Origin: Clostridia bacterium
GTDB taxonomy: Bacteria; Bacillota; Clostridia; Lachnospirales; Lachnospiraceae
Direction: 5' to 3'
Length of the DNA stretch: 34,271 bases
Assembly (NCBI GenBank): GCA_003252135.1
Contig: QKDK01000012.1
Span: 1 to 34,271, forward strand
A program made the position numbers and the translations under genes. Positions 5,937 to 22,939 of this stretch are shown piece after piece. Below the pieces are notes generated by a model. It saw only the letters and a list, made by a program, of their open reading frames with translations, ran no database searches and was not told where the DNA came from. The first letter of the stretch is position 1. Each line of letters starts with the position of its first letter.

Positions 5937-8666
5937 ATGGAAAAAATACTATTAATGACAGGGGATAACGAAAACAAGCGTATCGCTCTTGGCGTCTCCT
6001 ACATAAAAAGAGCCCTTGAAAAAGCAGGGTATCAGACAGAAGAGGGGAAAGCTCCTGTAGATTGTGCAAAGTATAGAAAAACAGAGCATAAAAAAATATA
6101 TGTCGGTGAACTGTCTAATGACAGAATGATCGACTGGCTGTTACTGGAAGAGCTTCTGATTTTTCACGCAAAGGAACCAAAAGCAGAAGGCTTTACCCTG
6201 GAGACCTGTCCCGGAGAGCTGACCGTTGTTTGCGGCGGAGATGATACAGGTGCTTTATACGGATGCCTGGAGCTTGCAGAACGTATTGAAAAGGAAGGCA
6301 GTCTGCCAAAAGACCTGGTATATGCCGATGCGCCTGTGTACAAGCTCCGGGGACCGGCTGTCGGTTTACAGAAAACGAAGCTTGAACCACCACGGCTGAC
6401 CTATGAATACCCCATCACACCGGATCGTTTTCCCTGGTTCTATGACAAAGCAATGTGGCAGAAGTTCCTGGATATGCTGTTATCCATGCGTTGTAACGTA
6501 CTGTACATCTGGAGCGGACATCCATTTTCCTCCCTTGTCAAAGTGCCGGAATATCCGGAAGCGCTGGAAGTAACAGAGGAAGAATTTCAAAAGAACAAGG
6601 AAGTCTTTGGCTGGCTGACAGAAGAGTGCGACAAGCGCGGTATCTGGGTGGTATTAAAATTCTACAACATCCACATATCCTATCCATTTGCACAGGCGCA
6701 CGGACTGGAGCTGCTGCAGAGCAACATTCATCCGCTGGTGGAAGACTATACAAGAAAATCAATCAAAGAGTTCATCAAAGCATTTCCGCATATCGGTCTT
6801 ATGGTGTGTCTTGGAGAAGCACTCCGCGGAACACAGAATAAAACCGACTGGTTCATCAAGACCATCATCCCGGCAGTAAAGGATGGCATAGCAGAAGCTA
6901 AGCTTTTGGAGGAACCGCCGATTATTCTGAGAGGGCATGACTGCGACCCGATTGGTGCCATGACAGAAGCAAAAAAAATATACTCCAATCTATACACCAT
7001 GTGGAAGTATAATGGAGAAGGTCTGACGACCTGTTTTCCGAAGGGCAAATGGCAGAAGACACATCAGGGTCTGGCAGCCCTAGGCACTACCCATATCATG
7101 AACATCCACATTCTGGCAGATCTGGAGCCTTTCCAGTATAATGCCCCGAGATTTATACAGAAATGCGTGCAGGCCGGTACGAACCGCCTTGGAACCAACG
7201 GACTTCATCTGTATCCTCTCTTTTATTGGGACTGGCCCTACACACCGGACAATGAGACAAAGAGACTGCTGCAGATCGACCGGGATGAGCTATGGTATAA
7301 AGCCTGGTTCAGATATGCTTGGAACCCCGACCGTGAAGAAAAGGACGAGAACACCTACTGGACTCTTGTAGTAGCAGAACGCTATAAGATTTCCGTTGAG
7401 GCAGCAGCCCATCTGCTGGAAGCCATGGAAGCAGCAGGTCAGTGCGCACCAAGAATCCTCCAGCGTGTGGGAATTACAGAAGGAAACCGTCAGACCATGA
7501 GCCTTGGCATGCTGATGAGCCAGTTCACCAATGTAATCAAGTATCGTCCGAACAAGGAGCTCTGGTACAGTGTTGCAAGACGCGGTGAACAGCCGGATGA
7601 TTATGTGAAGCATGAACTGGCAGGAGAAGACCATATCGGAGAAACACCTTATGATATGGTAAAAGATGTGACAGCTTTTGCCAGGAAAGCGCAGGACGAG
7701 TATAAAGCGGCTAGTAAGCTCACTAAAAATATAACAAAGGACATGGCGATGGTCGGAACTGATATTGATGCTATTGCCCTGATGACATATTCTTATAGTA
7801 AAAAGGTCGAAGCAGCCATGGAGATCTTGTTCTATAAGTACACTATGGATGAAAAGTGCTTTGGTGATGCCAGTTTTTTGGAAAAGGCTGAGCAGCTGAT
7901 GAAGGAATCCCTTGATTATTACAGAGAATTATCCGTGCTGACAACCAGGACTTATCTGTATGCCAACAGTATGCAGACACCGCAGCGTAAGATACCATTT
8001 CCGAACGGTGAGACCTATGGGCACTGGAATCAGTGCCTGCAAGAGTATGAGCTGGAATTTAGGAACTTTAAGAAGCATCGCCTGGAGCTTGCAGACATAG
8101 TAGCACCTGGAAGCAACAAAAAGCAGGTGGAAGCAGTTCCTTTGACACCGGCACCTTACAAGCTGTTATCAGCCGGCAATGCAAAGGACTTGCAGGATCA
8201 GTACATACTGACAAAAGGGGCAGCCATCTTTACCGACTGTGATTACAAGATCCAGAACCTGGCTCCGGAGCTGTCAAAGCTTACAGGAGTGCGCATGGGA
8301 CTTGGAAAAGCAATTGAAGGCGGTGTGACGGTCAAGCTTGAACTTGAGGAGGACTCCTTTGTGCTGATTGGCTATATGAACGGCAAAGGTGTGGAATGGC
8401 TGCAGCTGCCGGACCTTGAGACGAACACACATGCAGATGACAGAGGCGGACTCACCGTTGTCTATGCTAATGCTGTCAAGGTCGAAAGCTGTCCTGTCAT
8501 TAACATTCATGCCTACCGCTATGAAAAGGGCATACACGAAATCTACTTTGGAACCGGTGCCTATATGATTGCAGGTGTCATCTCACAAAAGGAAACGATA
8601 ATTCCACGAAATGCGGATCTTGCAGGGGAAGGCTATGATACGCTTGACTGGATGTATGAAGAATAA
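5937..8666 (+). CDS. Large GH67-like putative glycoside hydrolase, possible alpha-glucuronidase
   Basis: The protein has 909 residues from ATG 5937, which has GGAG at 5928-5931; an open GTG at 5892 has no site and is rejected. The first ~150 residues look like the GH67/GH20-type N-terminal domain (GGDDTGALYGCLELAERI). A barrel follows (FLDMLLSMRCNVLYIWSG; GIWVVLKFYN). The segment FPHIGLMVCLGEALRG resembles by eye the region of GH67 alpha-glucuronidases that holds the catalytic acid, which would make Glu294 that residue. RGHDCDP and TMWKYNGEG are further barrel blocks. A helical region and a beta domain complete it. There is no signal peptide. First gene of an operon with GH29 (19-bp gap) and GH42. 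A nearby CE15-type esterase fits a uronic-acid substrate. The activity is inferred; it may represent a family not yet characterised. Confidence 0.55.
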   Translation: MEKILLMTGDNENKRIALGVSYIKRALEKAGYQTEEGKAPVDCAKYRKTEHKKIYVGELSNDRMIDWLLLEELLIFHAKEPKAEGFTLETCPGELTVVCGGDDTGALYGCLELAERIEKEGSLPKDLVYADAPVYKLRGPAVGLQKTKLEPPRLTYEYPITPDRFPWFYDKAMWQKFLDMLLSMRCNVLYIWSGHPFSSLVKVPEYPEALEVTEEEFQKNKEVFGWLTEECDKRGIWVVLKFYNIHISYPFAQAHGLELLQSNIHPLVEDYTRKSIKEFIKAFPHIGLMVCLGEALRGTQNKTDWFIKTIIPAVKDGIAEAKLLEEPPIILRGHDCDPIGAMTEAKKIYSNLYTMWKYNGEGLTTCFPKGKWQKTHQGLAALGTTHIMNIHILADLEPFQYNAPRFIQKCVQAGTNRLGTNGLHLYPLFYWDWPYTPDNETKRLLQIDRDELWYKAWFRYAWNPDREEKDENTYWTLVVAERYKISVEAAAHLLEAMEAAGQCAPRILQRVGITEGNRQTMSLGMLMSQFTNVIKYRPNKELWYSVARRGEQPDDYVKHELAGEDHIGETPYDMVKDVTAFARKAQDEYKAASKLTKNITKDMAMVGTDIDAIALMTYSYSKKVEAAMEILFYKYTMDEKCFGDASFLEKAEQLMKESLDYYRELSVLTTRTYLYANSMQTPQRKIPFPNGETYGHWNQCLQEYELEFRNFKKHRLELADIVAPGSNKKQVEAVPLTPAPYKLLSAGNAKDLQDQYILTKGAAIFTDCDYKIQNLAPELSKLTGVRMGLGKAIEGGVTVKLELEEDSFVLIGYMNGKGVEWLQLPDLETNTHADDRGGLTVVYANAVKVESCPVINIHAYRYEKGIHEIYFGTGAYMIAGVISQKETIIPRNADLAGEGYDTLDWMYEE

Positions 8667-8685
8667 TGAAAGGCAGGTAAATAGA

Positions 8686-10029
8686 ATGGAAAAAAAGAAA
8701 CCAAGAGAAATGACCGGGGCAGAGCTTTTGTCCATGTTAAAAAGCAGTATTAACTTAAAAAGTCTTGGCGGTGTAAAATGTGAGGAGCTCAAGCTTATGC
8801 CACAGGATCTTGATTGGTGGCGTGATGCAAAGGTCGGCATGTTCTTCCACTGGGGGCTGTATTCGATCCTCGGACGTGGTGAATGGGCACGGTTCAATGA
8901 ACAGATTCCGAAAGAAGAGTATGAGAAACTAGCCTATGAATTCAATCCTCAGGACTTTAAGATGGAAGAGCTTACCGGTCTTGCCAAGGAGTTTGGTGCA
9001 AAATACATGGTCATGGTCACAAGACATCATGACGGATTTGCACTGTGGGACAGTCCCGGCAGCTATGAGGATTTTACCACCTTCAAAACCGGTGCAAAAC
9101 GTGATTTTGTGAAGGAATATGTGGAAGCCTGCAGAAAAGACAAAATGGCGGTCGGGGTATACTATTCTCCGATGGACTGGCGATTCCCGGGATATTTTGA
9201 CCCGGAAGGCCTTCCGGAAAATGCAGCCCTGATGAAAAAGCAGTGTTACGAGCAGGTCGAAGAGCTCTGCAGTAAGTACGGCAAGATAGACATCATGTGG
9301 TATGACGGCGGCTGGCTTGCACATAAAGGGAGCGACACCTCCAGTGCCTGGTTCTGGGAGCCGGTCGAGTTAAACAAGATCGTTCGAAAGTACAATAAAA
9401 AGACTCTGTTGAATCCGCGTTCCGGTTATGAAGGAGATTTCTATTGTGATGAAGGCTCTCATGAAATCACAGGAAAGATGCTGCCGGTACCGTGGGAAAA
9501 GAATATGTGCGTCTGCAGCGGTGCATCCTGGGGATGGATGGAGAATGACCCGGTATCTGATTTTAACTGGCTGATACATATGCTCGTAAATGTTATCACG
9601 CGTGACGGTAATTTCCTTTTGAATGTAGGACCTGACAAGAACGGCAAGCTCTCCAAAGAAGTGACCGACCGTATGCGCGAGATAGGTGCATGGCTCAAAA
9701 AGTATGGAGAAAGCGTTTACGGTACCAGAGGCGGTCCGATGGAGCCAGTCGATGGTGTATACGGTGCGACCTCAAAGGACGACCAGATCTTCCTGCATAT
9801 CATTGACACGAAAGAGTTCGCTAAGCTGACAGTTCCTTTTGAAGGCTATACCGTGATAAAATGCGATACCTTTGACGGTAAGGCACTAAGCTTCACACAG
9901 AACGAAGAGGGTATAAAGATCACACTGCCTGCTTCCTGTGAAGAGCCGGATATGATCGTGCGGCTGACAGTGGAGGGCAAGGTTAAGAAAAGGCAGAACG
10001 AAGAGATTTATTTTACCGGAAAAGGCTGA
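8686..10029 (+). CDS. Alpha-L-fucosidase, GH29 (second copy)
   Basis: This GH29 protein of 447 residues starts at ATG 8686 with AGGCAGG 8 nt upstream; the longer open frame from 8611 would overlap the previous gene and is not preferred. Motifs are AKVGMFFHWGLYS, VTRHHDGFALWDSPGS and KIDIMWYDGGW, where Asp207 is the expected nucleophile, followed by RDGNFLLNVGP. A C-terminal beta domain follows the barrel. No signal peptide is visible. It differs clearly from the copy at 3009-4349 (WYDGGW rather than WNDIGW), so the two enzymes probably handle different fucosyl linkages. It sits 19 bp after the GH67-like gene and 38 bp before GH42. Confidence 0.9.
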   Translation: MEKKKPREMTGAELLSMLKSSINLKSLGGVKCEELKLMPQDLDWWRDAKVGMFFHWGLYSILGRGEWARFNEQIPKEEYEKLAYEFNPQDFKMEELTGLAKEFGAKYMVMVTRHHDGFALWDSPGSYEDFTTFKTGAKRDFVKEYVEACRKDKMAVGVYYSPMDWRFPGYFDPEGLPENAALMKKQCYEQVEELCSKYGKIDIMWYDGGWLAHKGSDTSSAWFWEPVELNKIVRKYNKKTLLNPRSGYEGDFYCDEGSHEITGKMLPVPWEKNMCVCSGASWGWMENDPVSDFNWLIHMLVNVITRDGNFLLNVGPDKNGKLSKEVTDRMREIGAWLKKYGESVYGTRGGPMEPVDGVYGATSKDDQIFLHIIDTKEFAKLTVPFEGYTVIKCDTFDGKALSFTQNEEGIKITLPASCEEPDMIVRLTVEGKVKKRQNEEIYFTGKG

Positions 10030-10067
10030 TAAACGTGCGCTGATGCAGCGCAGAACGGAGATAAATT

Positions 10068-12074
10068 ATGCAATACGGAGTATCTTATTATCCGGAGCAC
10101 AAGACCCCGGATGAACTGGAGCATGATCTGCGTATGCTCAAGGAATCAGGGATCAATACGGTCCGCATGGGCGAATTTGCCTGGTGCCGCATGGAACCTG
10201 TCCTTGGCGAGTTTCACTTTGAATGGTTAAAAAGTGCGGCAAAAGAGCTTTATAAAGCAGGCATCAAAACGGTATTTTGTACGCCGACAGCCTGTCCGCC
10301 CGCATGGATGATCGAAAAAAATCCTGAGATTCTTTATGTGGATAACCGAGGCGTTACAAGGCCCTTTGGCGGCAGAAGACTTTACTGCTATAACAACGAG
10401 ACCTTCAGGGAGCATTCTCAGAGAATTACAGAGGCTCTGGCAAAGGAGTTTGGAGACAAACCTTACACAGCAGGCTTCCAGATCGATAATGAACCGGCGC
10501 AGGAAGGCACCGGAAGATGCCACTGTGCAGTATGCAGAACGAAATTTACAGCCTGGCTGGCAGATAAGTATCAGACGATCAACGAATACAACAGGCGAAG
10601 CGGCAGTATCTTCTGGTCTCAGGAATACGACAGCTTTGATCAGATACAAATGCCTGTGAATACCATTGAGACTGGTGCACAGGATCCAATAAAAGCATAC
10701 TATGAAAATCCTACCTTACGGCTTGACTATGAGCGTTTCTGCAGCGAAAGCCAGAAGGAGTACCAGGATCTTCAGGCTGAAATCCTGCACAGATACTCCA
10801 AAGCGCCTGTCTCAACGAACGGCACAGGTCTTGCCACGAACAGTATTGATTATTATGACAGCACAAAGAATCTTGACTGTTATGGTTTTGACCTGTATCC
10901 CTCCCTGCGTGATTCGGCTGTCGACTCCTTTCCTTACGCTTTTGCCAGGGGAATCAAAGACGGAGCACCTTTCTGGGTCTTAGAATTCATGTCAGGCGGC
11001 GGACATCGCTTAAGCGGCAGCGGAAGACAGCAGCCAAATCCGGGGGCACTGCAGCAGGCAGTCTTACAGCAGTTCGCACACGGTGCTTCAATGTCACTGC
11101 ACTTCCAGTACAGAAGCTATCCTTTCGGTGCAGAACAGCTCAATTATGCGATTGTAGACCTGGACGGCGTGCCAAGACGCAGATACTATGAAATGAAAGA
11201 AACAGCGTTGATCCTTAAAAAGCTTGAGGTCATGGAAAAAGCAGGGTTTGATAACCAGACAGCATTATTGTTTGATTATGACTCCTTCTGGGCAATGAAG
11301 ATCAAGCCTGCGAATGACCCGGAGCTGACTTATGATGCTTATATGTCAAAGCTCTATAACAGTCTTGGTGCAATCGGCGTCAATGCAGATGTTATCTCTT
11401 ACGCAGCTGACTTTTCAAAGTATAGGTTCATAATCCTTTCGACTGCCTTTGTAATGACGAAAAAGATGCAGGAAAAATGCAGACAGTTCGTCGAGAATGG
11501 GGGTACACTGCTCATGACCTTCTTATCCTCTGTAAAAAATGAGGATAACATCGGCTATACTACACCGCTTCCTGCCGGTCTGAATGAGGTGTTCGGTGTT
11601 GTAGTGGAAGAGGTCGAACCGGTATTTGCTAACAATCATACGAAAGTAAAGCTGATATCTTCTGATACAAGCTGTACAGACAGTAAATGGAGCGAGCTTT
11701 TATCGGGCAAAGCATTAGCAGAAGCGGTTTATACGGAAGACTACAAAGCCGGCAGCATGGTAATCAGTAAACATGCATTTGGTAAAGGGATGGCATATTA
11801 TCTTGGAACAGATCTGGAAGAAGCAGCCATGAGAGAGCTTTTAGGCAGGATCTGTGAACAGACAAAGATAACGAAGAACCCTTTTATTGCTGAGGACAAA
11901 GTGGAGATCGTACGCAGGGTCATGAATGATAAAGAATACTACTGCATTTTTAACTTTACCAGCCGTGAGACAAAAATCGCAGCAGAAGTCCCGGTGAAAG
12001 ATCTGCTGACTGGTGAAGCATTACATTCAGAAATCGTACTGAAAAGAAATGGTTTTCTCTTTTTGGAAGTCTGA
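10068..12074 (+). CDS. Beta-galactosidase or alpha-L-arabinopyranosidase, GH42
   Basis: This 668-residue protein has the full GH42 layout. The barrel begins YGVSYYPEHKTPDELEHDL. Glu142 in QIDNEPA is the acid/base and Glu306 in FWVLEFMSGGGH the nucleophile. Cys107, Cys151, Cys153 and Cys156 (GRCHCAVC) form the zinc site typical of many GH42 enzymes. The trimerisation-type middle domain (about 395-600) and a short C-terminal beta domain follow. There is no signal peptide. The ribosome site is GGAGAT before the ATG. It is the last gene before a terminator. It would remove terminal beta-galactose (or alpha-L-arabinopyranose, a known alternative in the family) from the imported oligosaccharide. 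Confidence 0.92.
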   Translation: MQYGVSYYPEHKTPDELEHDLRMLKESGINTVRMGEFAWCRMEPVLGEFHFEWLKSAAKELYKAGIKTVFCTPTACPPAWMIEKNPEILYVDNRGVTRPFGGRRLYCYNNETFREHSQRITEALAKEFGDKPYTAGFQIDNEPAQEGTGRCHCAVCRTKFTAWLADKYQTINEYNRRSGSIFWSQEYDSFDQIQMPVNTIETGAQDPIKAYYENPTLRLDYERFCSESQKEYQDLQAEILHRYSKAPVSTNGTGLATNSIDYYDSTKNLDCYGFDLYPSLRDSAVDSFPYAFARGIKDGAPFWVLEFMSGGGHRLSGSGRQQPNPGALQQAVLQQFAHGASMSLHFQYRSYPFGAEQLNYAIVDLDGVPRRRYYEMKETALILKKLEVMEKAGFDNQTALLFDYDSFWAMKIKPANDPELTYDAYMSKLYNSLGAIGVNADVISYAADFSKYRFIILSTAFVMTKKMQEKCRQFVENGGTLLMTFLSSVKNEDNIGYTTPLPAGLNEVFGVVVEEVEPVFANNHTKVKLISSDTSCTDSKWSELLSGKALAEAVYTEDYKAGSMVISKHAFGKGMAYYLGTDLEEAAMRELLGRICEQTKITKNPFIAEDKVEIVRRVMNDKEYYCIFNFTSRETKIAAEVPVKDLLTGEALHSEIVLKRNGFLFLEV

Positions 12075-12158
12075 GAAAGAGCACTGTTCTATCAGGGATC
12101 ATAAAGAGAGCAAGCAGGTACATGTATATCTGTCCGCATATCGGTATGCGTGACTGGG

Positions 12159-12195
12159 AGCAGGCTGTTTAATCCGTGCAGCCTGCTTTTCTTTT
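12159..12195 (+). terminator. Terminator ending the first enzyme operon
   Basis: AGCAGGCTG (12159-12167) pairs perfectly with CAGCCTGCT (12179-12187), followed by TTTCTTTTC. It separates the GH67-like/GH29/GH42 operon from the importer promoter. A smaller stem CGCATA-TCGG-TATGCG lies just upstream. Confidence 0.85.
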
Positions 12196-12204
12196 CAATA
12201 ATTG

Positions 12205-12300
12205 GAATTAAATAGAATTAAATAAATTAAAATTTCTGTAAATATTATGGAGCAATCAAAAAATTGAACTAATTGAAAATAGTTAAAATTATTATAACTA
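12205..12300. repeat. AT-rich repeats upstream of the importer promoter
   Basis: GAATTAAATA occurs twice in tandem (12205-12224). TAGTTA (12280-12285) and TAACTA (12295-12300) form an inverted repeat with a 9-bp spacer just upstream of the -35 box. ATTGAA motifs recur at about 12272 and 12341. This is a plausible region for activator binding, for instance by the YesN-type regulator, but there is no consensus to compare with. The rest of the gap 12075-12437 contains only the terminator and promoter listed separately. Confidence 0.3.
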
Positions 12301-12314
12301 CAGGACTTGATTTG

Positions 12315-12343
12315 TTGACATTCAACAATAGTGTTGCTAATAT
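12315..12343 (+). promoter_or_regulatory. Strong sigma-A promoter of the importer operon
   Basis: A consensus TTGACA (12315-12320), a 17-bp spacer and TAATAT (12338-12343). The spacer contains the inverted repeat CAACA-ATAG-TGTTG (12323-12336), placed where a repressor dimer would block polymerase. Confidence 0.75.
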
Positions 12344-12437
12344 TGAACTTGCAAAGCCGCAAAAAAGCTAAAAACATACAATAAATCATCTTGTATCAGT
12401 TAAATAATTTAGTAAATATTCGTGAGGAGTGAAATCG

Positions 12438-13433
12438 ATGGCGAAACGTGTACCACAGGATAAAGGTATACCGGCGGACAAAGGTGTACTATCAAATAAA
12501 GGTATATCATCAAAGAATGGTACGAACAAAAGTGTTGGAAAAAGAATGTATGAATATAGATATATTTATCTTCTTGGAATCCCGGGAATTATCGTTTTGA
12601 TTTTGTTTAACTATCTGCCGATGAAAGGTCTTTTAATGGCCTTTCAGAATTACAACCCGCATCTTGGAATCACAGGAAGTGAATGGGTAGGATTAAAGCA
12701 CTTCTCAACACTGTTCCATGATGCAAAATTCTATCTTATGTTAAAAAACACTCTGGTTATCAGCGGACTGTCACTTCTGACATTCCCGGCACCGATCATA
12801 CTGGCGCTGCTGATGAACGAGGTAAGAAACCGTACGTATCAGAAATTTGTGCAGACAGCTGTGTATCTTCCACACTTCTTATCATGGACGATCATTGTCA
12901 GCCTTACATTTTTCCTTCTTTCTACAGAACAGGGTCTTGTTAATAAGATCGCTGTCGAAATGGGAAACGATCCGACTTCATATCTTTTCAGCAAGGTCTG
13001 GATTTACCCGATCATCGTGATTCAATCAGTCTGGAAGGGAATCGGCTGGGGCTCCATTGTATATCTGGCAGCAATATCCGGTATCGATCAGGGATTATTT
13101 GAAGCAGCAAAGATCGACGGAGCGACAAAGTTCCAGCAGATATTTAAAATTACTATCCCGTGTATTCTGCCGACTGTAGTCGTAATGCTGATCTTAAAGA
13201 TGGGTACTATCATCTCCGTAGATTTTGAACAGGTATTTCTTATGAATAATGCGATGGTCAAATCAAAGCTGGAGGTTTTTGAGATCTATATTTACAACAA
13301 CAGTATTGCAACCGGCAGTACACAGTATTCCTACTCTACCGCAATCGGTATGTTCAAATCTCTTGTTAATACATCACTGGTCATACTAACGAACTGGATC
13401 ACAACAAGGAAGGGCTTTGAAGGAGTATTGTAA
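12438..13433 (+). CDS. ABC sugar importer permease, LplB type
   Basis: This permease of 331 residues starts at ATG 12438, with GAGGAG at 12424-12429; an in-frame GTG at 12429 overlaps that site and is rejected. A charged, Lys/Gly-rich cytosolic N-terminus of about 35 residues precedes six membrane helices. The coupling-loop motif EAAKIDGATKFQQIFKITIP marks contact with the ATPase. The sequence type (YIYLLGIPGIIVLILFNYLP; MAFQNYNPHLGI) is that of the LplB/YteP group, which imports complex oligosaccharides with a large binding lipoprotein. It is the first gene after the strong promoter and works with the next two genes. No ATPase gene is present in the window. Confidence 0.9.
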   Translation: MAKRVPQDKGIPADKGVLSNKGISSKNGTNKSVGKRMYEYRYIYLLGIPGIIVLILFNYLPMKGLLMAFQNYNPHLGITGSEWVGLKHFSTLFHDAKFYLMLKNTLVISGLSLLTFPAPIILALLMNEVRNRTYQKFVQTAVYLPHFLSWTIIVSLTFFLLSTEQGLVNKIAVEMGNDPTSYLFSKVWIYPIIVIQSVWKGIGWGSIVYLAAISGIDQGLFEAAKIDGATKFQQIFKITIPCILPTVVVMLILKMGTIISVDFEQVFLMNNAMVKSKLEVFEIYIYNNSIATGSTQYSYSTAIGMFKSLVNTSLVILTNWITTRKGFEGVL

Positions 13434-13473: not shown

Positions 13474-14391
13474 ATGTCAACAGTTGCGCTACAAAATACA
13501 AAAAAAAGAAAAAGTAAGAAGCTTGGCATGAAGGCAAAAACACTCATTGGACAGCTGATCCTTGATTTTATTCTGCTGCTGCTGGCAGCTACCATGATAC
13601 TGCCCTTTGTTTATATCCTGATGGTTTCATTTACTGACGGAAGCGTATTTATCAGCGGTAAATTTACCCTCTGGCCTGAAAAATGGTCACTGGATGCCTA
13701 TAAACTGATACTGAACGGAAGCGGCTTCTTAAATGCCATGAAATCTACACTGTTCATAACACTGATCGGAACACCTTTGAATGTTATTGTAAATGCAGGA
13801 CTTGGCTACATGCTTTCAAAACCGGTTCCCGGAAAAAGTTTCATCAATAAAGCAGTAATGTTCACTATGCTGTTTGGTGCCGGAATGGTGCCTGCCTATA
13901 TCAACATCAGTAATCTCGGACTGATCAACAGCTGGTTCGCCTGCATACTTCCTGCTGCATGCGGTGCATGGACGGTAATGGTCATGAAATCTTTCTTCAT
14001 GAGCATACCAGATGAGCTTGAAGAAGCTGCAAAAATCGATGGCTGCGGGCCGCTCAGGATCTTTGCAGTTATCGTACTGCCGCTTTCAAAAGCAGTTATT
14101 GCAACCTTTACATTATTCGCACTGGTTTCTTACTGGAACACATACTTCAGTGCAATTATGTACATTACATCAAGTGATAAGATGCCGCTGCAGGTATATC
14201 TGCAAAAGATCGTCCTCACTTCGAACATCTCGGATGTAGTAGATATTCAGATTGATCTGGCCAACACGGTTCCGCAGGAGGTTATGCGTATGGCGGCGGT
14301 TATCGTAGTCGTTCTTCCGGTCATCTGTATCTATCCGTTCCTTCAGAAATACTTTGCAAAAGGTGTCATGATCGGTGCGGTAAAGGGTTAA
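13474..14391 (+). CDS. ABC sugar importer permease, YtcP/CarG type
   Basis: The second permease has 305 residues and starts 40 bp after the first, with a GAGGT site. It has six membrane helices and the coupling loop EEAAKIDGCGPLRIFAVIVLP. The N-terminal segment with FTDGSVFISGKFTLWPEKWS and the C-terminal KYFAKGVMIGAVKG are typical of the YtcP/CarG group paired with LplB-type partners. It forms the membrane channel together with the previous gene product. A 167-bp spacer with a short GGCTG/CAGCC hairpin but no T run separates it from the binding-protein gene, which may set different transcript levels. Confidence 0.9.
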   Translation: MSTVALQNTKKRKSKKLGMKAKTLIGQLILDFILLLLAATMILPFVYILMVSFTDGSVFISGKFTLWPEKWSLDAYKLILNGSGFLNAMKSTLFITLIGTPLNVIVNAGLGYMLSKPVPGKSFINKAVMFTMLFGAGMVPAYINISNLGLINSWFACILPAACGAWTVMVMKSFFMSIPDELEEAAKIDGCGPLRIFAVIVLPLSKAVIATFTLFALVSYWNTYFSAIMYITSSDKMPLQVYLQKIVLTSNISDVVDIQIDLANTVPQEVMRMAAVIVVVLPVICIYPFLQKYFAKGVMIGAVKG

Positions 14392-14558: not shown

Positions 14559-16268
14559 ATGAATAGGAATTTCAAAAAATTCGCAGCAATGTTACTTATG
14601 GCAGCTTTGGTTCTTTCAACCTTCGCAGGTTGCGGAAACAAAACAGACAACAGCACATCCGGAACAAATGCCGGAACAGAAAGTACAGCAACACCTACCG
14701 CAGCAGCAGACAGTAGTACAGACAGCACAGCAGCACCTACAGAAACACCCGCAGATACAAGCAGCGACGAACGTATGACAATTAGCGTTATGGGCGTTGA
14801 CTGGGGTTATGGTCCTCTTGCAAACAGTGAGATGGAACAGTACTGGGAAGATATGTTCAATGTAAACCTTGATATCGAATGGGTTAACTACAATGACTAT
14901 CAGCAGAAATGTAATACACTGATCGCTACAGGTAATCAGTATGATGTTACTCAGGTTTACAAAACAAATTCAAATTATTACTACCCGATCTTTACACAGG
15001 CTATTGATGCAGGAGAGTTCGTTGATTTAACACCTTACCTGTTCAACAACGGCACCGGTCTTGCTGAAACAAACTCAGTTATGTCCGGCTGGGACAGCAG
15101 CATGTGGGATCAGGCTTCATACAATGGCGGTATCTACATTCTTCCAAGAAGCAAAGCAGAAATCGCACAGCAGTCAGGTATCACAGTTCGTCGTGACCTT
15201 ATGGAAAAATACGGCTATACAGAAGAGCCTACCACAATGGACGGCTTAAAGGACTGGCTGATCGGTCTCTCTGACGCAGCAACAGCAGGAGAAGGACAGA
15301 AAGTTTATGCACTTGATTTTTATGGTGAAGACTTCATGACAGACCGTGTGAAAGCATTTGCAGTAGCATTCACAGGACAGATGGACTGGGGCATTGATGC
15401 AGCTGGTAACTACACTTACATGCAGTTCGCTGATGGATATCTTGATTTCCTGAACTGGATGAAAGATCTTTATGATGCAGGCGTTATCGATCCTGAATTC
15501 TCACTTGGCAACGCAGATACTTCAAAATGGAAAGCAGGCAACTCTGTTGCATATCTTACAGCATGGTATAACTGGAATCAGTCAGCTGACTTAACAAGCA
15601 ACAAGATCTTTGATGAAGGTACACCGGATACATACGAAGCTTGGTGTCTGCTTCCTGTAGAAGGAACAAAAGGCATGACAGTTTCTAACAATGCATATGA
15701 TATTGATTCTTGTATCGCAATCAGCTCAGCTTGTTCAGAAGAAAAGATTCAGAAGATTCTTGAAGTGTTCAATGGTACAGAAGCTGAATACCCAGGATAT
15801 GATATGCTTATGGCAAACGGTATCGAAGGTGTTCACTATAAATTACTTGATGACGGAACTGTTGATACATCAGATGAAGTTATGGGACAGAAGAGAACTG
15901 AAGGTTATGTTGGTGCCTGGAACCAGATCTTCTTAAAAGTTGATGCTGACCAGATCACAGCTAAGTTCATGAGAGCAGGAGCTAAACGTGCTTCCGATGA
16001 AAACATCGCTCGTGCACAGGAAATCAAAGCTTCCATCGAAGATTACCTTGGTACATCAGGTCTGAAATTTGCAACAACAAGCTTAACATCTGAAACATAT
16101 AACAATCAGTGGAGTGTTCTTACAAGCGACGTTAACACAATGTGTACAATGTACGTAATGGGTGAACTTACAGAAGCTGACTGGACTGATTTCGTAACAG
16201 ATATCGTAAACTCAGCAGATTACAAAGCAATTCAGGCTGAATTTGCAGCATCTGCAGCAGCAAAATAA
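14559..16268 (+). CDS. Sugar-binding lipoprotein of the ABC importer, LplA type
   Basis: This 569-residue protein has a strong GGAGGAG site. A lipoprotein signal (MNRNFKKFAAMLLMAALVLS) ends in lipobox FAGC with Cys23. A Thr/Ser/Ala-rich tether of about 45 residues follows, then a large family 1-type solute-binding fold. Length and the many surface aromatic residues (NYYYPIF, WYNWNQ) suit binding of an oligosaccharide. It should sit on the outer face of the membrane and deliver ligand to the two permeases encoded just upstream. The gene is followed by a hairpin terminator, consistent with high expression of the binding protein. Confidence 0.92.
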   Translation: MNRNFKKFAAMLLMAALVLSTFAGCGNKTDNSTSGTNAGTESTATPTAAADSSTDSTAAPTETPADTSSDERMTISVMGVDWGYGPLANSEMEQYWEDMFNVNLDIEWVNYNDYQQKCNTLIATGNQYDVTQVYKTNSNYYYPIFTQAIDAGEFVDLTPYLFNNGTGLAETNSVMSGWDSSMWDQASYNGGIYILPRSKAEIAQQSGITVRRDLMEKYGYTEEPTTMDGLKDWLIGLSDAATAGEGQKVYALDFYGEDFMTDRVKAFAVAFTGQMDWGIDAAGNYTYMQFADGYLDFLNWMKDLYDAGVIDPEFSLGNADTSKWKAGNSVAYLTAWYNWNQSADLTSNKIFDEGTPDTYEAWCLLPVEGTKGMTVSNNAYDIDSCIAISSACSEEKIQKILEVFNGTEAEYPGYDMLMANGIEGVHYKLLDDGTVDTSDEVMGQKRTEGYVGAWNQIFLKVDADQITAKFMRAGAKRASDENIARAQEIKASIEDYLGTSGLKFATTSLTSETYNNQWSVLTSDVNTMCTMYVMGELTEADWTDFVTDIVNSADYKAIQAEFAASAAAK

Positions 16269-16321: not shown

Positions 16322-16363
16322 AGCGGGGACCGGGGGAATGCCCTCGATCCCCGCTTTCTTTTA
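16322..16363 (+). terminator. Terminator/attenuator between importer and GH2 genes
   Basis: AGCGGGGA (16322-16329) pairs with TCCCCGCT (16348-16355), with further G-C pairs inside (GGGG/CCCT), followed by TTCTTTTAT. No clear promoter is seen before GH2 at 16423, so partial read-through probably feeds the downstream enzymes at a lower level. Confidence 0.8.
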
Positions 16364-16422
16364 TATAACAGAAGGTACTGTATTGATCAGGCAGTGCATA
16401 AATACAGACATGGAGGATTATA

Positions 16423-19400
16423 ATGTCAAATCAGGATTTTTTCCGCGAGATAGCGATGACCAAGCATCCGATAGCCAATACAGACAAGGAGGTCATACCG
16501 CTTCCGATACCGGACAGGTATTTTCATGCAGTGGAAAAGAAAGAGAAGACCGGTTCCATATTCAAAGGCGAAAGCAGCTTTGAAGAAAAGACTGCCGAAT
16601 ATTATCAGGAATTAAAGAGATTAAAGAAAAGATACCAGCCCTTTATGGAGAACCATCTGCCAAAGCAGGAAGCCACAGTACAGATAAAGGAATTCAAAGA
16701 GTTTGAATTTCGTTACCTGCTTACAGGAGAGCGGTTCACAGAACGCAGCGAAAAAAAAGACTGGGAGCCGGTTACCGTTCCTGACTACCGCGGACCTGCA
16801 GATGAACATGGAAAGTGGAGATGCTACTATAAAACAATGTTTACTGTGCAGGATGAAATTGATTGCAGACATCGATACATACTGCGTTTTCAATGTGTGG
16901 ATTATCGTGCACTGGTCTATGTGAACGGTAATTTCGCAGGTGAACATGAAGGTTTTTTTGCTCCGTTTGAAATGGATGTAACAGATTATCTGGACTACGG
17001 GTTTGGAAAGACACAGGAACTGATCATAGAATGCAGGAATGATTATACTATTCTGGGGACAGGACCGGTGCTTGACGGTGATAAGATTTATGCGGCAACA
17101 GGGCCTGGCTGGGATGATCCTGAAACAGGCTGGCATCACTGTCCTGCAGGTGCCGGCGTGTTTGGCAGAGTAACCCTGGAATATCGTCCGCTTCTTCATA
17201 TCGATGATATATTTGTTCGTTCTGATATTGATCATGATGCAGTGGAGCTTCGTATCGGAATCATGAATTACGGCAGAGAAGTTGAAACAGATTATCAATT
17301 GGCAGTTTCTCTGCTTCCTAAGAACATTCACTCTGGTCTGGACAGACTGACAGAGGAAATCGGAGCACTTGCCGCAAAAGTTCCCTTTATTGGCATCGGA
17401 AAAAATGAATATCGCTACCAGATACCGATTCATGATTACAGGCTTTGGGAATGTGATACGCCTTATCTGTATGGTGCGCTTGCATCACTGACAAAAGAGG
17501 AAGAACCGGTAAGCAGCAGAACAGGGACCTTTGGTATTAAAAAATTCGAACAGGATGTGTCTGATACAGCACCTGACCACAGAAAAGGCCGATTCTTTAT
17601 GAATAACAAGCCGATAGTGCTTCGCGGAGCCAATGAGATGGGGCACCTGCAGCAATGTGTCATGAAAGGAGATTTTGACCTTCTGGTCGAAGATATTCTG
17701 ATCGCCAAGATGTGCAGCCTCAATTATTATCGCGTGACGCAGCGCCCGGTACAGGAAGAGATCTACGATTATTTTGATATGCTTGGCATCATGCATCAGT
17801 GCGATCTGCCGCTGTTTGCTTTTTTACGCAGGAACCAGTTCGCAGAAGCAGTAAAACAGACCGTGGAAATGGAGCATCTGATCAGAAGTCATGTTTCTTC
17901 TGTCATGGTGACCTTTATTAATGAACCGATGTGTATCAGGAGAACTGCAGATCCTGGCGACAAGTTCTCAAAACGCTATGATGCCAAAGGACACAGGCAC
18001 CTGCTTCGTGATGAACTGGAGGCTTTCTTTTCTGCGGCTCGAAAAGCAGTTTATGTGGAAAATCCTGATCGCGTCATAAAAAATGTGGAAGGAGATTATG
18101 ATGCGCCGACTGCAGAAGGTATGCCTGATTTCCACACCTATACCATGTGGTATACCAATCATGGTGAACCAATCGGAAGACTGATGAAAGGTTATATGCC
18201 GCCGGTCAAGGAAGGATGGATGATCGGCTGCGGTGAATATGGTGCAGAAGGACTTGATAACACCGATATCATCAGAGAAAGATATCCTAAGGAATGGCTG
18301 ACAGAGGATGAGCATGGGCACTGGTATCCGGACAGAATCGTTCGCGCTCAGTCACATTCTGTTCAGGGCGACTGGTTTGAGGAACAGAATACGATGGAAG
18401 ACTGGGTCAGAGAAAGCCAGATACATCAGGCTAACGCAACCAGACTGATGACAGATGCTTTCAGAAGACGCGGCGATGTGATCAACCAGACAGCGATTCA
18501 CCTGCTGATCGACGCCTGGCCGTCTGGATGGATGAAAACACTGGTCTGCTGTGATCGGGCACCAAAGCGTGCATACTTTGCCTATCAGGAGTCTCTGGTG
18601 CCGCTTCGCATCAATCTATTTACAGACCGATGGTATGTATATGAAGGTGAACACATAGGTGTTGAGACCTGGCTGCTGAATGATACGGCAAAAGCACAGG
18701 AACTTACCATAAAAGCTGAACTGACCAATGCAAAAACAAACGAATTATACGAATGCTATGAAGGAAAAGGCTGCGTAGGCGCAGCAACAGCAATTTGCTC
18801 CGGCTTATTACCAGTTACGCTCCCCAGCGTGAAGAAAGCAACTGCGATCCGCCTTACAGCAATCATATCCGATGCATTTGGTACAGCTTTGAATCAGGAA
18901 TCTATCCTGATCACCTGCTACCCAAAGACAAAAGCAAGGCAAAAGGTCACAGCTGTCGGTGATGCGGCCAGACAGATGCTGTCAGAACTGGATATAAAGG
19001 AATCAAAGGACGCGGATGTCCTGCTTTGCAGTGATGTCAGTGAAGAAGGAATGAAGCTTTTTTCAGATGCAGTTGCGAGTGGAAAAAAAGGTATACTGCT
19101 TTTGGATAAGCAGCTTTCTGTAAGAGCAGACGGCTGCCTGCTTGAGACAAAACCATGCCAGGCAGTATTTTACGGCGGAACAAAAACAAAAGACTATCCG
19201 CTTTTCATGATGTATAATAAAGAAAAAGGTTATATTGATTTTACGGGACAATGGATCATCAGCAGTGACAGAGAAAGTGAAATTCTTGCCTTTACATATG
19301 ATAAAAAAGGCTTCAACGGAAGCATCGGCCCAAAGAACAAGCTTCCCTTTGCTGCCAGATATCAGGGAGATCATGCAGAATTTACCGCCATAAGTATCTC

Positions 19401-19467
19401 CTGGCAGAATAAGCTGTGCTGCAATCCGAACCTGGATTATTTTCTTTTATCATTGATCCTGGAATAA
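16423..19467 (+). CDS. GH2-family glycoside hydrolase
   Basis: This 1014-residue protein has a GGAGG site. A unique ~100-residue N-terminal extension precedes the sugar-binding jelly-roll (about 105-260; YVNGNFAGEHEGFFAPFEMD), an Ig-like domain (about 265-385) and a barrel from RGANEMGHLQ. Glu501 in TFINEPM fits the acid/base and Glu605 in IGCGEYGAEGLD the nucleophile. A C-terminal beta/Rossmann-like part completes it. There is no signal peptide. GH2 includes beta-galactosidases, beta-glucuronidases, beta-mannosidases and arabinopyranosidases. The typical lacZ motifs are not obvious, so the substrate is open; beta-glucuronidase or beta-galactosidase would suit the neighbours. It is first of a three-gene set with CE15 and GH95. 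Confidence 0.82.
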   Translation: MSNQDFFREIAMTKHPIANTDKEVIPLPIPDRYFHAVEKKEKTGSIFKGESSFEEKTAEYYQELKRLKKRYQPFMENHLPKQEATVQIKEFKEFEFRYLLTGERFTERSEKKDWEPVTVPDYRGPADEHGKWRCYYKTMFTVQDEIDCRHRYILRFQCVDYRALVYVNGNFAGEHEGFFAPFEMDVTDYLDYGFGKTQELIIECRNDYTILGTGPVLDGDKIYAATGPGWDDPETGWHHCPAGAGVFGRVTLEYRPLLHIDDIFVRSDIDHDAVELRIGIMNYGREVETDYQLAVSLLPKNIHSGLDRLTEEIGALAAKVPFIGIGKNEYRYQIPIHDYRLWECDTPYLYGALASLTKEEEPVSSRTGTFGIKKFEQDVSDTAPDHRKGRFFMNNKPIVLRGANEMGHLQQCVMKGDFDLLVEDILIAKMCSLNYYRVTQRPVQEEIYDYFDMLGIMHQCDLPLFAFLRRNQFAEAVKQTVEMEHLIRSHVSSVMVTFINEPMCIRRTADPGDKFSKRYDAKGHRHLLRDELEAFFSAARKAVYVENPDRVIKNVEGDYDAPTAEGMPDFHTYTMWYTNHGEPIGRLMKGYMPPVKEGWMIGCGEYGAEGLDNTDIIRERYPKEWLTEDEHGHWYPDRIVRAQSHSVQGDWFEEQNTMEDWVRESQIHQANATRLMTDAFRRRGDVINQTAIHLLIDAWPSGWMKTLVCCDRAPKRAYFAYQESLVPLRINLFTDRWYVYEGEHIGVETWLLNDTAKAQELTIKAELTNAKTNELYECYEGKGCVGAATAICSGLLPVTLPSVKKATAIRLTAIISDAFGTALNQESILITCYPKTKARQKVTAVGDAARQMLSELDIKESKDADVLLCSDVSEEGMKLFSDAVASGKKGILLLDKQLSVRADGCLLETKPCQAVFYGGTKTKDYPLFMMYNKEKGYIDFTGQWIISSDRESEILAFTYDKKGFNGSIGPKNKLPFAARYQGDHAEFTAISISWQNKLCCNPNLDYFLLSLILE

Positions 19468-19491
19468 TCAAGAACAATAAGGAGAGTTGAA

Positions 19492-20601
19492 ATGGACACA
19501 CAGGTCAGCCAGGAATTATGCAGCAGAAAGCTGCCGGATCTTTTGACTTTCACAGACGGAACAGCAGTGAAAGAAAGGAAAGACTGGAGTAAAAGAAGAA
19601 AGGAAATCGAGCAGCTCTTACAACGTGAATTCTGCGGTACATACCCGGATTTTCCGCTGACGGTATCCGGAGAAGTGGTCAGAGAGGACAACAGCGGATT
19701 TGGAGGGAAAGCGCTCATACAGACCATTATGCTGCATGTAAAATCCTCCTATTCATACCTGACGTTTCCGTTTCAGCTATGTCTCCCGAAAAGAAGAGCT
19801 GATGCGCCGGTGTTCTTTTATTTTTCTTTTACCCCTGTAATAGCAGACGGATTGGGAGAAGAGATACTGGATAACGGGTTTGGTATCGTGAATCTTTATT
19901 ACCAGGATGTCACGAGCGATAAGGACGATGAGTTTGCAAGCGGTGCCGGAAGATTTTACAGCAGAAATTCTTTTGACAGCTGGGGTAAGCTTGCCATGTG
20001 GGCATGGGGCATGCAGCGCATCATGGATTATCTGTTTAAGGAATGCGAAAACGGAAGCGTAAAACTGAAAAGCCTGGATCTGACCAAAAGTGCAGTGATG
20101 GGTCATTCAAGACTTGGAAAGGCAGCACTGATCTGCGGAACAATGGATGAAAGATTCTCGCTGGTGGTCTCCAACGATTCAGGCGGCGGCGGAGCGGCCC
20201 TGTTTCGTAAAAAAACGGGAGAAGGTATACAAGACCTTGCTAAACACGGCTCAAGAATCTGGTTCTGTGAGAATTTCTTTAAGAACCATGCCACGCCGGA
20301 GGAACTGCCCTTTGACCAGCACTTTCTGCTTGCCCTTACTGCACCAAGGCACTTGTATGTGTGCAGTGCTACAGAGGATGACTGGGCAGATCCTTTATCC
20401 GAGTACTTAGCTTGTGCGGCTGCAACACCGGCTTATGAGATCCTTGGGTGCAAGGGACTGATAACGGATGGAAAATTTGCCAGCCCCGAGGTGCCTTACC
20501 ATGAAGGCAGTATAGGGTATCACCTGCGGACGGGCACCCATCACCTGGGAAGATATGACTGGCAGCAGATCATGGAATACAGGAGAAAACATAATGTATA
20601 A
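19492..20601 (+). CDS. CE15-type glucuronoyl esterase, apparently cytosolic
   Basis: This 369-residue alpha/beta hydrolase carries the CE15 signature. The nucleophile Ser206 lies in VMGHSRLGKAAL and is followed by the family block VVSNDSGGGGAALFRKK. The C-terminal histidine lies in GYHLRTGTHHLGRYDW (His350 or His351). CE15 enzymes cleave esters of (4-O-methyl-)glucuronic acid, classically between xylan and lignin. Known members are mostly secreted, but the N-terminus here (MDTQVSQELCSRKLPD) is hydrophilic with no signal. This suggests that an esterified uronic-acid oligosaccharide is imported and de-esterified inside. The gene starts 24 bp after GH2 with a GGAGAG site and overlaps the GH95 start by 8 bp. 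The substrate ester could also be a different alkyl or sugar ester. Confidence 0.82.
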   Translation: MDTQVSQELCSRKLPDLLTFTDGTAVKERKDWSKRRKEIEQLLQREFCGTYPDFPLTVSGEVVREDNSGFGGKALIQTIMLHVKSSYSYLTFPFQLCLPKRRADAPVFFYFSFTPVIADGLGEEILDNGFGIVNLYYQDVTSDKDDEFASGAGRFYSRNSFDSWGKLAMWAWGMQRIMDYLFKECENGSVKLKSLDLTKSAVMGHSRLGKAALICGTMDERFSLVVSNDSGGGGAALFRKKTGEGIQDLAKHGSRIWFCENFFKNHATPEELPFDQHFLLALTAPRHLYVCSATEDDWADPLSEYLACAAATPAYEILGCKGLITDGKFASPEVPYHEGSIGYHLRTGTHHLGRYDWQQIMEYRRKHNV

Positions 20602-22939
20602 TGCAATATGCCATACCCTTTGCCTTGGTAAGGCAGCAAGAAGATGGGATGACGGACTTCCTGCAGGCAACGGCAGGATAGGTGCCATGGTCATGGGGAA
20701 GGTCAACGAAGAAACGATTTTTATTAATGAAGAATCTCTTTGGTTCGGGCCAAAAAGAAAGCGCACGAATCCTGACGGGAAAGCTCATATCGCAAAAATT
20801 CGTGAACTGCTGCTGCAGGGAGAAGTGGAGGAAGCTGCCTTTCTCGCCAAGATGTCAATGACCTCCGCGCCAAAATACAACAATCCCTATCAGCCGGCAG
20901 GAGATCTCAGACTTTGCTTCATGCGGCATCAGGGAAAAGTCACTGACTACAGCAGGACACTTTTTTTGCAGGATGCAGTTGTAAAGGTGAATTATAAGAT
21001 TGACGATTCAACATACTGCAGAGAGCATTTTATCAGCACAGCCTATCAGGTCATGGTCATTCGTCTGACGACAGATCATCCGATGGGAATATCTGTAAGT
21101 GCCAATATGAGCCGCAAGCCTTTTGAAGAATTCACAGGAAGCATTGCAGCCGATACCGCAGGGAACTGGGGTAGAAATGGTGATCAGGGTGTTTATTATC
21201 TGACAGGTGTCCGCATCAAAGCAGAGCCTTTTGATGACCATAGAGGAAAGGACTTTGAAGCAGGTATCATGGGCGATTTTGTATATGCCAGGAACGCGAA
21301 GGAAGTTATCCTCTATCTGAGCGTTGGCACTGATTTTTCTGACATTGAAAAAGCAGAGCAGAAACAGCTGGCCTACGAGCCTGGACCAATGACTGATCAT
21401 TGTCCTGACAGACTTCTTGACAGAATCAATCATATTCTGGATGAGGCACAGACAGCAGGCTTTCAGACAATAGCAGAGAAACATAAAGAAGACTATCATA
21501 AGCTCTATGACCGGTTCTCTCTGGAGATAAATACAGTAAATGAAGTACGTGCGATTCCTTTTATGGAAAGCATTATGGATGAGATACGCAGCGGAAAAGA
21601 AGAGAATATGGATCTTTTGACGCAGCTTCTTGTCAATTATGCAAGATATCTGATGATATCATCCTCTTATCAGTGTCATCTTCCCTCTAATCTTCAGGGA
21701 CTGTGGAATGGTTCCTATGAGCCGCCGTGGCAGAGTCAGTATACGATCAATATCAACACCGAGATGAATTACTGGTTCGTTGAAAAAGCCGGTCTTTCAG
21801 AATGTCATCTTCCGCTGTTCGAACATCTGAAGCGTATGCTGCCAAACGGCAGGCAGACAGCAAAGGACCTGTATGGATGTGAAGGCTTCTGTGCTCATCA
21901 CAATACGAATCTGTGGGGATGTACAGATCTTGAAGGTATCTTTGATGCTTCTCCCTTCTGGCCTATGGGAGCAGCCTGGCTGTCACTGCATACCTATGAG
22001 CATTATGCATTTACAAAGGATGAGGTGTTTCTTGAACAGACTGCCATGCCGCTCATGCGGGAAGCTATACGTTTCTTCGAAGGATACCTGTATGAATCAG
22101 AGGATAAGATGCTGCTGACAGGTCCTTCCCTTTCACCGGAGAATACCTATCTTTCAAAGGCAGGGCAAAAGGGCGCGCTCTGTATGGCACCGACAATGGA
22201 TTCGTCCATCCTGCGCGCATTATTGACCGACTATCTGGAAGGACTTGAGATACTTGGAGAGAAGGATTCGGCAGAGTATAAAAAGCTGTCAGCTATGAAG
22301 AACAGACTTGTACCGCTGCAAATCGGTGCGGACGGCAGAATTCTTGAGTGGTATCAGGAATATGAGGAAACAGAACCGGGACACAGGCATATCTCCCATA
22401 TGTTCGCACTTCATCCGGGAAAAGAGATCACACAGGATAATCAGGCGCTTTTTTCTGCAGCACAGAAATCTATAGCCTACAGACTGGAACATGGCGGCGG
22501 ACATACCGGCTGGAGCAAAGCATGGCTCTGCTGCTTTATGGCCAGATTAAAGGATGCAGACAATCTGTACAGGAATTTATTTCAGATGATGCAGAAATGT
22601 ATACAGGATAATCTGCTGGATATGCATCCGCCGTTTCAGATCGACGGCAATTTTGGATTTGCAGAAGCAGTCATCGAAGGGATCGTACAGTCCCATGCCG
22701 GATATATCGAGCTTCTGCCTGCCCTGCCAAAAGCATTCAGGAGCGGCAGAATAAAAGGTGTCGGACTTATAGGTGCCGTAAGTGCTGATATAACATGGTC
22801 AGATGGGCTGCTTACAGAATGTATACTGACGGCAAAAACTGATACCACTGTGCAGATTTGCTGGCAGGGAAGAAAAAAAGAGCTGATTCTTGAAAAGAAC
22901 AGCCCTTGTAAGCTTACAGCGACAGACTATGTTTTTTAG
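20594..22939 (+). CDS. GH95 alpha-L-fucosidase or alpha-L-galactosidase
   Basis: The protein has 781 residues from ATG 20594, served by AGGAG at 20581-20585 inside the end of the esterase gene; the longer frame from 20555 is not preferred. The N-terminal beta domain has WDDGLPAGNGRIGAMVMG. The (alpha/alpha)6 barrel has NLQGLWNGSYEPPWQSQYT, HHNTNLWG (Asn437 and Asn439, the pair that assists the base in this family), LSPENTYL (Glu516, expected acid) and FQIDGNFGF (Asp684). GH95 inverts alpha-1,2-fucosyl links, and some members remove alpha-L-galactose from plant glycans. No signal peptide. The 3' end overlaps the convergent kinase gene by 26 bp with no terminator between them. Confidence 0.9.
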   Translation: MYNAICHTLCLGKAARRWDDGLPAGNGRIGAMVMGKVNEETIFINEESLWFGPKRKRTNPDGKAHIAKIRELLLQGEVEEAAFLAKMSMTSAPKYNNPYQPAGDLRLCFMRHQGKVTDYSRTLFLQDAVVKVNYKIDDSTYCREHFISTAYQVMVIRLTTDHPMGISVSANMSRKPFEEFTGSIAADTAGNWGRNGDQGVYYLTGVRIKAEPFDDHRGKDFEAGIMGDFVYARNAKEVILYLSVGTDFSDIEKAEQKQLAYEPGPMTDHCPDRLLDRINHILDEAQTAGFQTIAEKHKEDYHKLYDRFSLEINTVNEVRAIPFMESIMDEIRSGKEENMDLLTQLLVNYARYLMISSSYQCHLPSNLQGLWNGSYEPPWQSQYTININTEMNYWFVEKAGLSECHLPLFEHLKRMLPNGRQTAKDLYGCEGFCAHHNTNLWGCTDLEGIFDASPFWPMGAAWLSLHTYEHYAFTKDEVFLEQTAMPLMREAIRFFEGYLYESEDKMLLTGPSLSPENTYLSKAGQKGALCMAPTMDSSILRALLTDYLEGLEILGEKDSAEYKKLSAMKNRLVPLQIGADGRILEWYQEYEETEPGHRHISHMFALHPGKEITQDNQALFSAAQKSIAYRLEHGGGHTGWSKAWLCCFMARLKDADNLYRNLFQMMQKCIQDNLLDMHPPFQIDGNFGFAEAVIEGIVQSHAGYIELLPALPKAFRSGRIKGVGLIGAVSADITWSDGLLTECILTAKTDTTVQICWQGRKKELILEKNSPCKLTATDYVF

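Follow-up and report, generated by a model that had tools for sequence, protein, structure and literature searches.

Rhamnogalacturonan II (RG-II), a pectin of great complexity, is found in land plants generally (PMC12168206). Its side chain A, as assembled from PMC7939467, has the structure L-Gal-a1,2-GlcA-b1,4-(2-O-Me-Xyl-a1,3)-Fuc-a1,4-(GalA-a1,2)(GalA-b1,3)-Rha-a1,3-Api-b1,2-GalA (Gal, galactose; GlcA, glucuronic acid; Me, methyl; Xyl, xylose; Fuc, fucose; GalA, galacturonic acid; Rha, rhamnose; Api, apiose). Methyl esters are reported on the GlcA, and a methylesterase must precede the beta-glucuronidase (PMC7939467). Bacteroides thetaiotaomicron is reported to cut 21 of the 22 RG-II linkages, leaving 2-O-Me-Xyl-a1,3-Fuc; BT0997 is the alpha-galacturonidase of chain A, BT0992 removes beta-GalA, BT0996 beta-GlcA, BT1002 fucose and BT1017 methyl esters (PMC7939467). 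The GH141 enzyme BT1002 releases the disaccharide 2-O-Me-Xyl-Fuc (PMC10154630, PMC7939467). A 2021 survey placed the glycoside hydrolase (GH) families GH137-GH143 mainly in Bacteroidetes, with some Acidobacteria (PMC7922503), and PMC11003169, PMC10981690 and PMC11218088 mention or count GH138. In the open-access literature searched, whose coverage is partial, no Gram-positive RG-II locus is described. Here we present a locus on contig QKDK01000012.1 (C181 of a 3.57 Mb assembly, 80% complete) of a Clostridia bacterium of the family Lachnospiraceae. The window, meaning the whole stretch of 34,271 nucleotides analyzed, carries a GH138-like gene among carbohydrate enzymes and importer genes, and we consider it probable that this locus is an import-first catabolic module for RG-II side chain A in a Clostridia-type bacterium.

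The original prediction had named arabinogalactan and cereal xylan as substrates. These are probably wrong: the GH138-like gene, which it did not identify, points to RG-II chain A. The 924-residue protein has no Pfam match. Its match to NCBIfam NF049878 (AlphGalctur) spans almost the entire protein (E 1e-282) but scores 940.3 bits where the equivalog cut-off is 1300, so we call it a GH138 relative and not a proven functional equivalent. Residues 96/97-922 matched the solved structure of BPa0997 (PDB 6hze/6hzf) with E values of 3e-191 to 3e-192; we take BPa0997 to be a GH138 member and BT0997 to be the founding one. Counted along the alignment, E309 and E376 fall on E294 and E361 of BPa0997. 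E294 is presumably catalytic, and an E361S mutant, named in the structure entry, marks the position equivalent to E376. Both residues were invariant in a 12-sequence alignment (A1) and in 76 of 76 aligned homologues, a count that omits five loci (L047, L048, L087, L112 and L117) represented by antisense frames in place of GH138. These antisense open frames, of about 770-1300 codons, lie over the GH138 gene and are most likely chance frames; the only one scanned, that of L048, had no Pfam or NCBIfam match. On these similarities, the enzyme of the window is predicted to be an alpha-1,2-galacturonidase acting on RG-II chain A.

Distribution and linkage of the GH138-like gene

We compared 299 genomes of the same family, including the window's own, from which the queries for GH138 and GH2 were taken; the GH31 query came from G250, itself counted among the GH138 genomes. 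At E 1e-30, the GH138 gene was found in 11 of the 299, namely the window's own genome and ten of other genera. Matches to carbohydrate esterase family 15 (CE15) over the family cut-off occurred in 40 genomes, comprising all 11 with GH138 and 29 of the 288 others (Fisher p 7e-11). The GH2 type of the window (E 1e-60) was present in 12 genomes, again all 11 with GH138 and 1/288 others (p 3e-19), and a GH31 of at least 57% identity in 8/11, the query's own genome included, versus 1/288 (p 1e-12). These p values overstate independence because the genomes share ancestry and CE15 lies near GH138 itself in 5 of the 11. The single outlier in the last two comparisons was the same genome, G158 (locus L153), which has the GH2 type, CE15 and a close GH31, with no GH138 match at E 1e-30; its GH138 is either missing from the assembly or lost.

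In the other six GH138 genomes CE15 is on a different contig from GH138, and in five of these it stands beside GH95, with GH2, GH29, GH42 or GH31 nearby in varying combination. The order is GH2-CE15-GH95-GH29-GH42-GH31 in G181 and GH2-GH95-GH29-GH42-GH31 in G220, where a CE15 match lies between GH2 and GH95. G157 and G255 carry GH2-CE15-GH95, and G098 carries CE15-GH95 with GH29-GH42. In the sixth, G093, CE15 was found without GH95, GH2, GH29, GH42 or GH31 in the stretch read.

Among named genomes, a scan confirmed 89 relatives of GH138. The best 80 of these were used as loci; they came from Lachnospiraceae and other Clostridia, many from Paenibacillus and two from actinobacteria. Ten of them (L041, L044, L046, L054, L055, L056, L060, L061, L069 and L114) are evidently records already among the 299 genomes and add no extra evidence. 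With the window they make up 81 neighborhoods, in which partners were counted protein against DNA at E 1e-30 and neighboring gene families were assigned from one representative per family. Near GH138 we found the GH29b type in 34 loci, GH95 in 28, GH42 in 17, the GH2 type in 14, GH31 in 13 and CE15 in 11, besides GH78 in 23, apiosidase-like genes in 11 and at least one UxaA-, UxaB- or UxaC-like gene in 12. All are lower bounds, since each locus extends at most 10 kb per side. The search of other genomes for the same gene order, suggested by the original prediction, thus showed that the module recurs in related genomes, with all six partners (GH95, CE15, GH2, GH29, GH42 and GH31) in four of the 81 loci (L041, L042, L054 and L098) and five of the six in the window and L105.

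The GH29b type lies directly 3' of GH138 not only in the window but also in L039, L040, L041, L042, L054, L098 and L105. In L052, L055, L056, L060, L061 and L067-L069, GH138 follows a Mannitol_dh (UxaB-like) gene and a UxaA-like gene, in several cases with UxaC, an arrangement that suggests galacturonate as a product. A separate arrangement was seen in Paenibacillus: GH29-GH138-GH95-BNR_2-MGH1-like GH-BNR_2, mostly then AraC, without CE15 or the GH2 type of the window (L076, L080, L082, L085, L086, L088-L091, L102, L108, L113 and L115).

Signatures of the partner enzymes

In the GH42 enzyme of the window, the Trp after the nucleophile and the His after the conserved Glu have given way to a conserved stretch of GGH..GxGR type and to Asn. 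Both canonical residues are lost in 18/18 subgroup members that cover the region, whereas three solved GH42 relatives keep both, as do two GH42 proteins of L060, which is also a GH138 locus, and two on another contig (C107) of the window's own genome. One further GH42, on own-genome contig C94, differs from both the canonical and the subgroup patterns. Such an altered signature would be in keeping with a different target sugar, possibly a uronate.

CE15 had as its best PDB match 8q6s (PvCE15; E 2e-57). It carries GHSRLGK at position 204, in agreement with the GHSRxGK motif, and the catalytic His in RTGTHHLGRYDW, which places it in the family. Motif and His are present in 11/11 cluster members, the window's included; five further CE15 rows had been selected by the GHSRxGK motif itself and were excluded from this count as a test of the motif. 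The PvCE15 study reports no sign of pectin methylesterase activity and suggests that CE15 enzymes in pectin loci may act on uronate esters of RG-II (PMC10807430). A role for CE15 in RG-II has therefore been put forward before; what is added here is the genome-level link to GH138. The Bacteroidota enzymes share the pectin context, but the CE15 described here is tied to GH138 across one Gram-positive-type family (11/11) and is predicted to be cytosolic.

GH95 (P0010) of the window reads TININ in the TxNxN motif, with a Thr two residues before the first catalytic Asn. This Thr was found in 26 of 28 GH95 proteins of GH138 loci, and the other two did not match the search pattern. In the GH95 enzyme BACOVA_03438, the position contacts O6 of L-Gal, although the marker is called indefinite (PMC4491172). 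For the GH2 enzyme, a profile search against solved structures returned beta-glucuronidases, beta-galactosidases and others, with no clear nearest type, and its AlphaFold model has a mean predicted local distance difference test score (pLDDT) of 67.9, with a long stretch of the catalytic barrel (431-579) under 50.

GH31 belongs to the relatives of the window and not to the window. The best solved relatives of the L041 protein are alpha-xylosidases such as BoGH31A, and we regard the GH31 of these relatives as a candidate for the 2-O-methyl-xylosyl-fucose bond. In the open-access literature searched, of partial coverage, no 2-O-methyl-xylosidase is described.

Gene content and a proposed import-first route

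In the window, 39 open reading frames (ORFs) were called and 20 of their proteins annotated. As originally predicted, seven carbohydrate enzymes stand beside an LplB/YtcP-type importer of the ATP-binding cassette (ABC) kind, and both parts are borne out by family and permease matches (Table 1). None of the seven has a signal-like hydrophobic N-terminus, again as claimed. In a hydropathy test, distinct from SignalP, Kyte-Doolittle values were averaged over 15-residue stretches of the first 60 residues; the highest mean was 0.11 to 1.31 in the enzymes and 2.30 and 2.42 in the two binding proteins, both of which carry lipobox cysteines. An LTGC pattern occurs at residue 12 of the GH29b ORF, although the hydropathy of this ORF peaks at only 0.70. 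Since this ORF overlaps GH138 by 56 bases, its true start is probably internal, and the pattern probably sits upstream of it.

Table 1 Features of the locus in the window and their predicted roles.
Feature	Coordinates	Strand	Evidence and remarks
GH29a, divergent from the module	3009..4358	-	PF01120 E 5e-100
LacI-family regulator adjoining GH29a	4455..5477	-	PF13377 and PF00356
GH138-like, predicted alpha-galacturonidase	5892..8666	+	924 aa ORF; true start probably slightly inside
GH29b, alpha-L-fucosidase type, predicted removal of chain-A fucose	8611..10029	+	PF01120 E 6e-72
GH42 with changed active-site residues, predicted to cut a beta-uronide (beta-GalA or beta-GlcA)	10068..12074	+	PF02449 E 4e-103
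LplB-type sugar ABC permease	12429..13433	+	PF00528 (BPD_transp_1) E 1e-16; kept in related loci
YtcP-type sugar ABC permease	13474..14391	+	PF00528 (BPD_transp_1) E 6e-13; kept in related loci
Solute-binding lipoprotein 1	14559..16268	+	lipobox Cys, hydrophobic N-terminus
GH2 of distinct type, predicted chain-A beta-glucuronidase or beta-galacturonidase	16423..19467	+	GH2 Pfam domains
CE15 glucuronoyl esterase, predicted methyl-ester removal from chain-A GlcA	19492..20601	+	PF22244 E 7e-37
GH95, predicted alpha-L-galactosidase for terminal L-Gal of chain A	20555..22939	+	PF22124 E 7e-145
Sensor histidine kinase, likely locus regulator	22914..24776	-	PF06580 E 7e-19; recurs with the module
Solute-binding lipoprotein 2	24870..26666	+	PF01547 E 2e-7; lipobox; recurs with the module
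Response regulator, AraC-type DNA-binding domain	27660..29222	-	PF00072 and PF12833

The limits first drawn for the locus need to be moved. Comparison with related genomes defines a conserved unit of about 5892-29222 that contains the enzymes, the importer, two binding proteins and a two-component system; on the right it extends past the 22939 first assigned, as the kinase, the second binding protein and the response regulator recur elsewhere. Lipoprotein 1 is 61-64% identical in three full loci, those of G250, G179 and G271, and the response regulator is 45-47% identical in G250 (C21), G179 and G271. On the left, GH29a had been counted as part of the system, but the GH29a/LacI pair (3009-5477) stands beside the GH138 module only in the window and its closest relative, L039, and is likely a separate unit. 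The GH138 of L039 is 86% identical to that of the window. A GH106-like rhamnosidase gene (L039:6674-9913, PF17132 E 1e-17) lies between LacI and GH138 in L039 and is absent from the window. An alpha/beta-hydrolase gene (PF12146) at 26717-27670, between lipoprotein 2 and the response regulator, is not in the recurring set. In the set of 20 annotated proteins we found no ATPase for a transporter, and scans of the window for Rfam families at gathering thresholds and for tRNAs gave no match.

An importer beside enzymes without signal peptides fits the earlier idea of import followed by intracellular dismantling, and an acidic glycan with an alpha-L-fucose-type sugar fits as well. With GH31 of the relatives included, the module families appear to correspond one to one with the seven outer bonds of chain A, and we infer from this the substrates, the order of cleavage and the transported oligosaccharide of the following route. 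Outside the cell, enzymes from beyond the locus or other bacteria would release an oligosaccharide that carries chain A. One of the two lipoproteins, or both, would capture it and pass it to the LplB/YtcP permeases for import; the ATPase that powers them is presumably encoded elsewhere in the genome. Once it is in the cytosol, GH95 would remove L-galactose, CE15 the methyl ester of GlcA and GH2 (or GH42) the beta-GlcA. GH29 would then take the fucose, in several relatives after GH31 has taken off 2-O-methyl-xylose. GH138 would remove the alpha-1,2-GalA and GH42 (or GH2) the beta-1,3-GalA, and the rhamnose-apiose stub would be left to GH78- and apiosidase-type enzymes encoded elsewhere. This stub would call for a rhamnosidase and an apiosidase: on other contigs, the window's own genome has five GH78 matches, three apiosidase-like matches (best E 9e-99) and, for the uronates, UxaC.

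The B. thetaiotaomicron system (BT0992, BT0996, BT0997, BT1001, BT1002, BT1012, BT1017 and others) targets the same chain-A bonds. Its enzymes have signal peptides, whereas the locus combines an ABC importer with enzymes that lack them. Where B. thetaiotaomicron uses the BT1017 methylesterase and the GH141 enzyme BT1002, the locus has CE15 and GH29 (with GH31 in relatives), and it has GH42 beside a single GH2. We take BT0992 and BT0996 to be GH2 enzymes and the L-galactosidase of B. thetaiotaomicron to be a GH95. Neither SusC nor SusD was found among the annotated window proteins, which have ABC permeases instead; with no such pair and no exported enzymes by hydropathy, the locus is not a Bacteroides-type polysaccharide utilisation locus.

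There is also a stronger version of this proposal, which we rate as less likely than not: that the module provides a complete cytosolic Gram-positive chain-A pathway, in which GH31 and GH29 would replace GH141 and cut the 2-O-methyl-xylosyl-alpha-1,3-fucose bond, the GH42 subgroup would be a beta-galacturonidase and CE15 an RG-II GlcA methyl esterase.

Other substrates and the meaning of the locus

Several points weigh against assigning the locus to RG-II chain A. The GH138-like protein scores below the equivalog cut-off, and none of the six partners lies within the fetched stretch in 28 of the 81 GH138 loci. GH31 is absent from the window; the best match in its own genome, an 80% complete assembly, has 43-44% identity, and G161 and G271 likewise have only 42-47% GH31 matches. 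The Thr of GH95 is also present in 7kmq, which we take to be a fucosidase. Sequence does not settle which sugars GH2, GH42, GH29 and GH95 act on, all activities assigned here are predictions, and no enzyme of the locus explains the extracellular release of chain A. Finally, two GH115 genes lie elsewhere in the window's genome, so the organism may separately use xylan or arabinogalactan.

The alternative that survives best, though we think it unlikely, is another pectic or arabinogalactan side chain with terminal GlcA or GalA, attacked by a GH138 relative of changed specificity. The sub-cut-off NF049878 score leaves room for such a change, and terminal GlcA is reported in arabinogalactan portions of rhamnogalacturonan I (PMC10807430). 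However, every outer bond of chain A has a matching partner family, and apiosidase-like genes accompany GH138 in the loci counted above.

We consider it very unlikely that the substrate is a complex cereal glucuronoarabinoxylan, in which GH95 would remove L-galactose, CE15 would cleave a uronate ester and GH42 and GH2, with GH31 in relatives, would remove other decorations. There is precedent for part of this set, as PUL-XylL of B. ovatus likewise has GH95 and GH31, which freed L-Gal and xylose decorations, respectively, from corn xylan (PMC4491172), and the GH115 genes of the window's genome could be read in its favor. But xylan loci of B. ovatus have GH10, GH43, GH67 and GH115 (PMC4491172), and none of those four was found among the annotated window proteins, where GH138 is present instead. 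GH67, the alpha-glucuronidase of xylan, was found in 26 of the 299 genomes, in 2/11 with GH138 and 24/288 without (Fisher p 0.25), and not in the window's own. The proposed arabinogalactan and xylan substrates therefore fit less well, because the module goes with GH138 and GH67 does not follow GH138. A link between xylan and this locus is unsupported, and GH138 has no known part in xylan breakdown.

Least likely of all is an acidic (GalA-bearing, fucosylated) xyloglucan, with GH95 and GH29 removing fucose, GH42 and GH2 beta-galacturonosyl or galactosyl residues and, in relatives, GH31 xylose: in systems for xyloglucan, GH95, GH42 and GH31 often occur side by side, and the L041 GH31 is closest to alpha-xylosidases among solved structures, but the window locus has no GH31, no beta-glucosidase family occurs among the annotated window proteins, and this reading would leave unexplained both GH138 and the genes for uronate catabolism and apiosidase that lie near it in other loci.

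A second large sugar locus of the same genome (L136 and L137; G000:C107:1-40000) carries GH29, an importer, two GH78, a GH106-like and a GH43-like gene, two GH42, GH127 and relatives of a DUF1537-type kinase and of the beta-keto acid cleavage enzyme; its substrate may be RG-II chain B or a different side chain of pectin.

RG-II is part of the human diet, and in the literature searched its described bacterial breakdown rests on Bacteroides. The assignment of the module to chain A is directly testable in cultured carriers, Robinsoniella peoriensis (L041) and Murimonas intestini (L054). If true, it would give CE15 a concrete substrate and provide candidate enzymes, in the GH31, GH42 and GH2 subgroups, for RG-II bonds that include the one B. 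thetaiotaomicron leaves uncut. An import-first route in Clostridia and relatives would also widen the known range of RG-II users and would suggest cross-feeding on chain A oligosaccharides.

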